Assembly (NCBI GenBank): GCA_036383255.1
Contig: DASVOS010000012.1
Coordinates: forward strand, 5,001 to 69,000
Origin: Gammaproteobacteria bacterium
Lineage (GTDB): Bacteria > Pseudomonadota > Gammaproteobacteria > Natronospirales > REEB76
Reading direction: 5' to 3'
DNA: 64,000 nucleotides
Of this stretch, positions 31,781 to 54,390 are shown in pieces. The notes beneath the pieces were generated by a model. It ran no database searches. It saw nothing but the letters and a program-made list of their open reading frames with translations, and was not told where the DNA came from. Numbering within the stretch: the stretch's first letter is position 1; every line of letters begins with the position of its first letter. The position numbers and the translations under genes were made by a program.

Positions 31781-31908
31781 CTAAAAGCGTCACGAGCGAA
31801 GGCGGGGCTAGGCGGGCGAGGCGAGCAGGAGGGAGTGCACTCTTAGTGTGCATGACCGACTGCGAGTCCGAAGCCCAACAACGCCCCGCCGAGCGCAGTA
31901 GCTTTTAG
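31781..31908. repeat. Structured inverted-repeat element, copy A
   Basis: 128 bp with ends CTAAAAGC (31781-31788) and GCTTTTAG (31901-31908). An internal hairpin TGCAC-TCTTAGT-GTGCA (31836-31852) is followed by TGACCGACTGCGAGTCCGAA. The element is colinear and largely identical with the reverse complement of the copy at 52294-52423, except that ends and hairpin differ in compensating fashion. The TAA stop of pilU lies in the terminal arm. No coding potential of its own. Confidence 0.8.
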
Positions 31909-52293: not shown

Positions 52294-52423
52294 CCCCAAA
52301 GCTGCTGCGCTCGCCGGGGCGTTGTTGCGCTTCGGACTCGCAGTCGGTCACGTACGCCAAGAGTACGCTCCCTCCTGCTCGCCTCGCGCGCCTAGCCCCG
52401 CCTTCGCTCGCGACGCTTTGGGG
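52294..52423. repeat. Structured inverted-repeat element, copy B
   Basis: 130 bp between CCCCAAAGC (52294-52302) and GCTTTGGGG (52415-52423). Internal hairpin CGTAC-GCCAAGA-GTACG (52351-52367) with a 7-nt loop. Reading the opposite strand, it follows copy A (31781-31908) almost base for base outside the ends and hairpin arms. It begins directly after the OsmC stop. Confidence 0.8.
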
Positions 52424-52441: not shown

Positions 52442-53143
52442 CTAAGAGGCGCCTAATCCGATCGAGTTGAGCCATTCTTCGAGCATCGCCGCGGCTTGCC
52501 GCTCCATGGCGGGCGCATGGCGCTGTGCGTCACGGCGCAGGCCCGCGGGCGTCAGGCCCTGCTCGCGGATCTCGCCCACGTTCCCCGCGTACCACTGCTC
52601 CAGTCCCCGCGCCGTCACCTCGGGGTGGAACTGCAGCGCGAGCGCGCGGCCCCAGCTGAAGCCCTGGCAAGGCGTGAGGTCGGTGGCGGCGAGCGCCAGT
52701 GCATCCTTCGGCAGGTCGAACTGGTCGCCGTGCCAGTGCAGCACTGGACCCAAGAAGTGCCGGATGGCCGAGCTCTGCCCGGCTTCCGTGAGGGTAAGCG
52801 GCTTCCAGCCGATCTCCATGCGCTCGCCCTTCCGCACCGTGGCGCCCAGCGCCTTCGCCAGGAACTGGCTGCCGAGGCAGATGCCGAGCGTCGGCAGCGC
52901 GGCCTTGAGGCGAGTCTCGATGAACCTGAGCTCCGGGGCCATGAAGGGGTAATCCTCCATGTCGTTCACGCCGATGGGTCCGCCCAGCACCACCAAGAGG
53001 TCCCACTGCCCCTTGGCGAGCAGCAGGAAGTCGGCGGTGGGCGCGTCCACGTAGCGGATCGCATATCCCTTTTCTGCCAGCACCGGCGCGAGGGAGCCCA
53101 GGTCCTCGAATGGGACATGACGTATAGCTAGAAGATTTTTCAT
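52442..53143 (-). CDS. Class I glutamine amidotransferase-like protein
   Basis: 233 residues: MKNLLAIRHVPFEDLG, WDLLVVLGGPIGVND, the nucleophile Cys in LGICLGSQFLAKALG (about 88), RMEIGWKPL, HWHGDQFDLP and the His-x-Glu part in LQFHPEV (about 168). It resembles the glutamine amidotransferase domain of GuaA without the synthetase. The ATG has no Shine-Dalgarno; it overlaps the TGA of a leader ORF running through element C (ATGA). The amidotransferase acceptor is unknown. Confidence 0.87.
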   Translation of the reverse strand: MKNLLAIRHVPFEDLGSLAPVLAEKGYAIRYVDAPTADFLLLAKGQWDLLVVLGGPIGVNDMEDYPFMAPELRFIETRLKAALPTLGICLGSQFLAKALGATVRKGERMEIGWKPLTLTEAGQSSAIRHFLGPVLHWHGDQFDLPKDALALAATDLTPCQGFSWGRALALQFHPEVTARGLEQWYAGNVGEIREQGLTPAGLRRDAQRHAPAMERQAAAMLEEWLNSIGLGAS

Positions 53144-53370
53144 ACCAAAAGCGTCGCGAGCGAAGGGTGCGGCACATGTGCCGCGCGGGCATACAGGGAT
53201 GTATGCCCCGGGCCATGAGCGGAGCAGGAAGCGCAGCGAATGGGGCTAGGCGCGTCCCCGCGCCCGTCGCTCCCGGGCATCCTGCCCTCTCGCGACGTTA
53301 GGCCGTCCTGGCCGTCACAGCGCCCTGCCGAGCGCAGCAGCTTTTGGCGGATGGCGAGCAGATTCTTCAC
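53140..53370 (-). CDS. Small ORF through repeat element C beginning with a second copy of the amidotransferase N-terminus
   Basis: 76 codons starting at GTG 53370. The first eight residues MKNLLAIR equal those of the amidotransferase start, but nearly every codon differs at the third base. The rest translates repeat element C without a stop, ending in TGA that overlaps the ATG of the amidotransferase. A TAGAAT box is seen just upstream of the GTG, so it could be a leaderless leader ORF that couples translation to the next gene. Whether it is translated is unknown; the peptide beyond residue 8 resembles no family. Confidence 0.45.
   Translation of the reverse strand: MKNLLAIRQKLLRSAGRCDGQDGLTSREGRMPGSDGRGDAPSPIRCASCSAHGPGHTSLYARAAHVPHPSLATLLV
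53145..53347. repeat. Structured inverted-repeat element, copy C
   Basis: 203 bp with ends CCAAAAGC (53145-53152) and GCTTTTGG (53340-53347), and the same GCGTCGCGAGCGAAGG and GCCGAGCGCAGCAG blocks as copies A and B. It holds additional hairpins: the palindrome GCGGCACATGTGCCGC (53169-53184) and GGGCATACA-GGGA-TGTATGCCC (53187-53208). It lies directly in front of the amidotransferase ATG, with one base between. Confidence 0.78.
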
Positions 53371-53559
53371 CCGGCCATTCTAGCAGCCCGTGCGCTAAGC
53401 GCCTGTCGCCATTGGGTTTTTCCCCTGGGCCGGGCTGCCACGAGGCTGCCATGCGGCAGGGATACCCTCGAGTGCATAGAATGTGACTATCGCTCCCGCC
53501 TCCGGCAGCCCGAGGCTGTCCGTATGACCGGCAGGGCACCGCACAAGCGAGATACATCG

Positions 53560-54390
53560 ATGCTTTATCCCGAGCTGTTCCGTTCCCTGGAAAGACTGCG
53601 CTGGAGCATGGAGAAGGATATCCCCTGGGACCGCTTCGATCCCAGCCTCCTCAGCGACGAGCAGGCCCAGACCATCAAGATGAACGCGATCACGGAGTGG
53701 TCGGCGCTGCCCGCCACCGAGATGTTCCTGCGCGACAACCGCGGGGACTCGGACTTCTCGGCGTTCATGTCCATATGGTTCTACGAGGAGCAGAAGCACT
53801 CGTTGGTGCTGCAGGAGTACCTGCGCCGCTTCCGCCCGGACCTGCTGCCCACCGAGGAGGAGCTGCACGCGGTGCGCTTCGAGTTCGACCCGGCCCCGCC
53901 GCTCGAGACGCTGATGATGCACTTCTGCGGCGAGATCCGCCTGACCCACTGGTACCAGTGCGCCTCGCAGTGGCACACGGAACCCCTGATCAAGTTCATC
54001 TACGACATCATCTCCCAGGACGAGGCGCGCCACGGCGGCTGCTACCGCCGCTTCATGGAGCGCGCCGTGGAACAGCAGGGCGACACGGCGCGCCTGGCCT
54101 TCGCCAAGATGGGTGTGCTGATGGCGAGCATCCGCACCGGCAACGCGCTGCATCCCACCAACCTGCACGTGAACAAGGCGCTCTATCCCAAGGACCGGGT
54201 GCAGGACCACGTCCCGGACCCGGGCTGGATGGAGCACTGGCTCAACGAGCAGATCCATTTCGACCGCAGCTGGCAGGAGAAGGTGATCGCCCGCATCCTG
54301 CAGAACCTCTCCCTAATCCTGAAGGTGAAGCTCGAGTCAGTGCGGGACCTGTCCCAGTTCCGCAAGCAACTGGCCGCCGACGCCGCCTGA
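53560..54390 (+). CDS. Ferritin-like diiron protein (acyl-ACP desaturase type)
   Basis: 276 residues, mostly helical. Diiron-site motifs: EEQKH in MSIWFYEEQKHSLVLQEYL (about 85) and DEARH in IISQDEARHGGCYRRF (about 158). This EExxH...DEARH pattern is that of soluble diiron enzymes related to acyl-ACP desaturases and ferritins. I start at the ATG at 53560, which gives MLYPELFRSLERLRWSM; an ATG at 53524 would add 12 residues. The preceding gap (53371-53559) holds no other gene. Substrate unknown; neighbouring Nudix gene starts 18 bp after. Confidence 0.78.
   Translation: MLYPELFRSLERLRWSMEKDIPWDRFDPSLLSDEQAQTIKMNAITEWSALPATEMFLRDNRGDSDFSAFMSIWFYEEQKHSLVLQEYLRRFRPDLLPTEEELHAVRFEFDPAPPLETLMMHFCGEIRLTHWYQCASQWHTEPLIKFIYDIISQDEARHGGCYRRFMERAVEQQGDTARLAFAKMGVLMASIRTGNALHPTNLHVNKALYPKDRVQDHVPDPGWMEHWLNEQIHFDRSWQEKVIARILQNLSLILKVKLESVRDLSQFRKQLAADAA

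Follow-up and report, generated by a model that had tools for sequence, protein, structure and literature searches.

Two copies of an amidotransferase gene start on either side of a hairpin repeat in a gammaproteobacterial genome

We analysed a 64,000-nt stretch (the window) of contig DASVOS010000012.1 from the Gammaproteobacteria bacterium assembly GCA_036383255.1, in which the start region of a class-I glutamine amidotransferase gene occurs twice on the minus strand, once on each side of a 203-nt hairpin element (element C). The features of the locus, in window coordinates, are:

52298-52416, plus strand: ordinary 119-nt copy of the repeat, 4 nt past the stop of a convergent OsmC-like gene
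52442-53143, minus strand: class-I glutamine amidotransferase gene, 233 aa (PF00117, 1.3e-15; NF005458, PRK07053)
53120-53143, minus strand: second copy of codons 1-8, A/T-ending (ATG...CGT), the actual gene start and first start codon in frame
53140-53370, minus strand: leader ORF of 76 aa, open through element C, its TGA overlapping ATG 53143 (ATGA)
53145-53347, minus strand: element C, a 203-nt hairpin of a post-stop repeat family, its basal stem formed by CCAAAAGC (53347-53340) with GCTTTTGG (53152-53145)
53347-53370, minus strand: start-region remnant, GTG and codons 2-8 (MKNLLAIR), G/C-ending, recognised from the sequence and from comparison with orthologues
53377-53382, minus strand: TAGAAT, a conserved -10 box 6 nt before GTG 53370, probably a leaderless promoter (seven orthologues)

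The NF005458 (PRK07053) match of the amidotransferase scores 289 bits, above the curated cut-off of 250. Orthologues in the sister genus are 62-65% identical, begin with MKSLLAIR or MKTLLAIR and lack the element, and OsmC-like and NUDIX genes neighbour the amidotransferase there too. Several genomes of the sister genus seem to have the NUDIX gene immediately next to the amidotransferase; in the window, a diiron/AurF-like gene (about 53560-54390, plus strand) lies between the two. GuaA excepted, no second amidotransferase copy or complete paralogue was found in the genome, nor was a tandem pair of the gene found among 56 relatives. Searches of genome and viral collections for an element-free congener turned up no genomes closer than those of the sister genus, some giving more distant relatives or no match at all, and the comparison of orthologous loci that the first-pass annotation had called for was made with the sister genus only, where the element is absent and both the promoter box and the start position are conserved.

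On the minus strand, positions 53370-53347 (GTG AAG AAT CTG CTC GCC ATC CGC) and 53143-53120 (ATG AAA AAT CTT CTA GCT ATA CGT) both encode MKNLLAIR. Six of codons 2-8 differ, each at the third base, with AAT common to both copies, and the first base distinguishes the two start codons. Every one of these seven base changes leads from G or C upstream to A or T downstream, and the A/T-ending run at ATG 53143 goes on to codon 11, past the duplicated part. The first-pass annotation had described this arrangement, namely the same N-terminus on both sides of a 203-nt element and seven of eight codons differing synonymously, and the sequence confirms it (six third-base changes and the first-base change of the start). 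Its placement of one element edge at codon 8/9 also holds; as a small correction, the matched DNA takes in the CA of codon 9 as well. The direct match of the two start copies spans 25 nt with a score of 13, against best direct scores of 4-8 at the other 63 repeat copies, and the peptide common to both flanks is 7 aa long, against 5 aa or fewer at those copies; by this comparison the start-region match around element C exceeds chance. The direct repeats adjoin both ends of element C but mismatch at 7 of 24 positions, and none of the 63 other copies checked has flanking direct repeats.

A TAGAAT, TAAAAT or TACAAT box lies 6-8 nt 5' of the single start in seven orthologues from the same family, and a box of this type at a distance of 5-9 nt is rare upstream of other starts in the window. 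Because orthologues without the element carry a like box just before their single start, we read GTG 53370 as the ancestral start position, in agreement with the first-pass annotation, and the spacing of the box suggests that the transcript from GTG 53370 is probably leaderless. A scan of the window found no TAGAAT box in front of ATG 53143, which is the first start codon in the amidotransferase frame and the sole remaining canonical start of the gene. No new sigma-70 promoter appeared beside ATG 53143 in a promoter scan, which also misses the TAGAAT box.

Element C belongs to a repeat family with fixed termini, each copy of which has its own complementary basal stem. Its ends match the family termini (AAAGCTGCTGCGCTCG...CGCTCGCGACGCTTT) without a mismatch at either end, its basal stem (CCAAAAGC/GCTTTTGG) is complementary and specific to this copy, its stems are intact, and it is a long variant of the ~118-nt repeat. 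What sets it apart is its position: 27 of 39 copies lie in sense orientation -4 to +11 nt from the stop of an upstream frame with gene-like GC3, and several further copies of the 39 sit behind frames of lower GC3, whereas element C does not lie right behind a stop codon and follows codons 1-8 of the start region. Another 25 weaker matches show the same post-stop behaviour, though they vary in sequence and may in part represent other hairpin families. The ordinary copy at 52298-52416 ends 25 nt from the amidotransferase stop codon at its far end and faces that stop, and a further copy lies in the window at 31787-31905. Within element C, the family member is placed at 53151-53344.

Covariation within the family is strong, with compensatory changes in 20 of 37 predicted pairs. 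The predicted hairpin of element C has a free energy of about -114 kcal/mol; the structure z-score of the wider stretch is only -1.05, a modest value because the region is GC-rich. A covariance model finds 64 matches in the organism's own genome and related hairpins in 21 of 114 sampled gammaproteobacterial genomes. An Rfam search of a stretch with two repeat copies gave no match within the element at the gathering score, and just a sub-threshold microRNA match outside element C.

Several side observations concern the family as a whole. Weaker matches of the model in the same genome resemble more post-stop hairpin families (e.g., AAAACGGG...CCTCGTTTT), which share the placement and the complementary feet and differ in sequence. 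Long variants, element C among them, are mosaics that combine standard ends with additional hairpin modules, and CAGGGATG-type loops occur in some of them. A GTTCTWA-like box recurs 10-17 nt beyond the B end in several copies (5 of 39, against a mean of 0.3 in shuffles); GGTTCTWA downstream of the B end (four copies) was considered as a cause of the recoded codons and fails to explain them. A precise empty site in the sister genus was sought for another family copy and not found, the intergenic DNA there not being alignable.

We tentatively favour, at somewhat under even confidence, a reading that joins two parts, a relic of a tandem gene copy as the history of the duplicated start and re-initiation coupled to the leader as its present behaviour. 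On the history we lean, with some uncertainty, toward the relic; duplication of the start followed by A/T recoding is a close rival. Repaired insertion, paralogue remnant and coupling leader, the alternatives raised by the first-pass annotation, are the appropriate ones to weigh. According to the relic history, the locus would formerly have held two diverged gene copies in tandem, in the order copy 1, hairpin element, copy 2, and the hairpin would originally have lain behind the stop codon of copy 1, like the rest of its family. A deletion would have removed the body of copy 1 and fused its codon 8/9 (CGCCA) to the CCA at the element foot, so that the promoter and initial eight codons of copy 1 survive as a relic before copy 2. 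The third-base differences would then represent the divergence of two genes, each selected for the same N-terminus.

Several observations are consistent with this history. CCA is common to codons 8/9 and the element foot, as a microhomology deletion would leave. Third-base divergence between the start copies (6 of 7 codons) equals the upper end of the range among sister-genus genomes (1-6 of 6-7), yet the stems of the element are intact, so that the divergence of the codons appears to predate the junction. No amino acid has changed in the upstream copy across ~17 non-synonymous sites, which together with the intact stems suggests that little neutral change has accumulated. An ordinary target duplication would have produced copies identical at first, so that 7 of ~8 possible synonymous sites would have changed since, which would require that A/T was strongly favoured by directional selection at the new start, or else that the divergence preceded the junction. 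We favour the relic because the family lacks target duplications and lies mostly behind stop codons. The second gene copy is hypothetical, given that none of the 56 relatives has a tandem pair; the first-pass annotation had offered a paralogue remnant as one source of the upstream codons, a complete paralogue is missing from the genome, and a relic of a diverged copy is the origin we prefer. Two points speak against the relic: the ATG lies within 1 nt of the element and the relic adjoins its other side, which resembles a target duplication, and the sole unchanged codon, AAT, already ends in T, so that seven changes toward A/T would also fit recoding of a recent copy.

The absence of amino acid changes in the upstream copy bears on a further claim of the first-pass annotation, that the shared residues reflect selection on the peptide in both places. 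Zero changes in so few sites allow a neutral, recent upstream copy, what remains being accounted for by purifying selection on the real gene, and upstream MKNLLAIR is no proof of selection there.

A realistic possibility, though not the one we would put first, is that the element entered codon 8/9 of a single gene by insertion or local duplication, with a 24-26-bp duplication of the start, and that the new start was then recoded toward A/T, driven by initiation beside a hairpin without a Shine-Dalgarno sequence. The start copies adjoin the element exactly, as target duplications do, and all seven changes are synonymous and run from G/C to A/T, in a run that passes beyond the duplicated part. 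Start regions in the window are A/T-biased (GC3 of 0.58-0.76 at codons 2-8 vs. 0.87 overall), and the computed opening energy falls from 9.1 to 7.5 kcal/mol on recoding, a gain of 1.6 kcal/mol. These figures lend modest support to directional selection having driven the new start toward A/T; among synonymous variants, the openness of the recoded start lies only at the 20th percentile in a short context and at the 7th in the full context. Optimisation of RNA structure is weakly supported as the one driver of the A/T-ending codons and was set aside; 20% of random synonymous variants do equally well. Insertion with target duplication is weakened by the family itself, none of whose 63 other copies carries such a repeat, and reversion by deletion would be expected of identical 24-bp repeats spaced 227 bp apart.

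The frame that begins at GTG 53370 runs open through the element to a TGA overlapping ATG 53143, as originally described, and the resulting 76-aa ORF has no Pfam or NCBIfam match. Such an open frame is ordinary and unremarkable: 65 of 117 frames across the 39 repeat copies are stop-free, under a Markov model 68 codons stay open with P=0.32, and an open leader in the ATGA register is expected by chance at ~0.1 (0.32 x 1/3 for the register). Leader and amidotransferase have the overlapping stop and start, on the same strand, by which termination-reinitiation pairs are recognised. ATG 53143 is predicted to lie 1 nt behind the basal stem with its upstream side buried in the stem, no Shine-Dalgarno sequence was found before it, and opening of the region is computed to cost ~12 kcal/mol in the leader context; de novo initiation there should be poor.

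In the reading we prefer, transcription would begin at about GTG 53370 from the TAGAAT promoter, ribosomes starting at the GTG would read the 76-codon leader through the hairpin and stop at its TGA, and they would re-initiate at the ATG that overlaps it. We consider such termination-reinitiation from the leader plausible. In overlapping gene pairs tested elsewhere, 13 of 14 were coupled (PMC6728339). Removal of the Shine-Dalgarno sequence lowered re-initiation in most E. coli pairs, and its absence here means that the efficiency of re-initiation at ATG 53143 could be low. That the locus acts as a natural leaderless bicistronic switch, in which the repeat made the old start into a leader cistron and the displaced, recoded-start gene is expressed only if translation of that leader melts the hairpin, seems to us unlikely.

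We regard as quite improbable the stronger proposal of an adaptive regulatory role for the leader cistron, in which its translation, MKNLLAIR included, would be under selection to control the amidotransferase. An in-frame ORF ending in ATGA, a leaderless-type promoter and a start buried in a stem would suit it, and engineered leaderless bicistronic cassettes act similarly in Corynebacterium (PMC10367133). Against it, the open frame has the chance probability of ~0.1 given above, the leader is without a family match and absent from the sister genus, and the common residues require no selection on the leader. An assembly artefact or strain chimera is very unlikely: the draft genome is in 18 contigs and the repeat has many relatives there, but element C is a unique 203-nt variant whose longest exact run in common with any other copy compared is 25 nt, short for a typical collapse, and the locus lies 58 kb into a 114-kb contig, far from its ends.

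Dispersed, non-coding, palindromic repeats that are intergenic and often near gene ends are familiar in Gammaproteobacteria as REP/BIME and ERIC-like sequences. The family described here differs in being ~118 nt long, with a single long imperfect hairpin and a basal stem unique to each copy, and element C is not intergenic in the usual sense. Integrative elements such as phage 21 and e14 in icd swap a gene end for a recoded copy. They share with this locus two versions of a gene end with mostly synonymous differences and an element between them, but the element here is 203 nt long and has no integrase, and the other repeat copies lack such a duplication. The ATGA-coupled pairs of PMC6728339 have the same 4-nt overlap of stop and start on one strand; here, by contrast, a repeat-derived frame of 76 codons stands in place of a conserved first gene, no Shine-Dalgarno sequence is present, and coupling is putative. 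The leaderless bicistronic design of PMC10367133 likewise places a leaderless first cistron ahead of the gene of interest, but is engineered and depends on a Shine-Dalgarno motif for its strength.

The locus is real, single and unusual, a genomic accident made of ordinary ingredients, with a proposed history and a putative effect on translation. With one locus in one draft genome, its general weight is limited. It can be read as a fossil of a gene that lost its start and then regained it around a repeat, and provides one clean test case for translational coupling by a repeat-derived leader. The post-stop hairpin family, to which hairpins in 21 of the 114 gammaproteobacterial genomes sampled are related, may be the broader lead.
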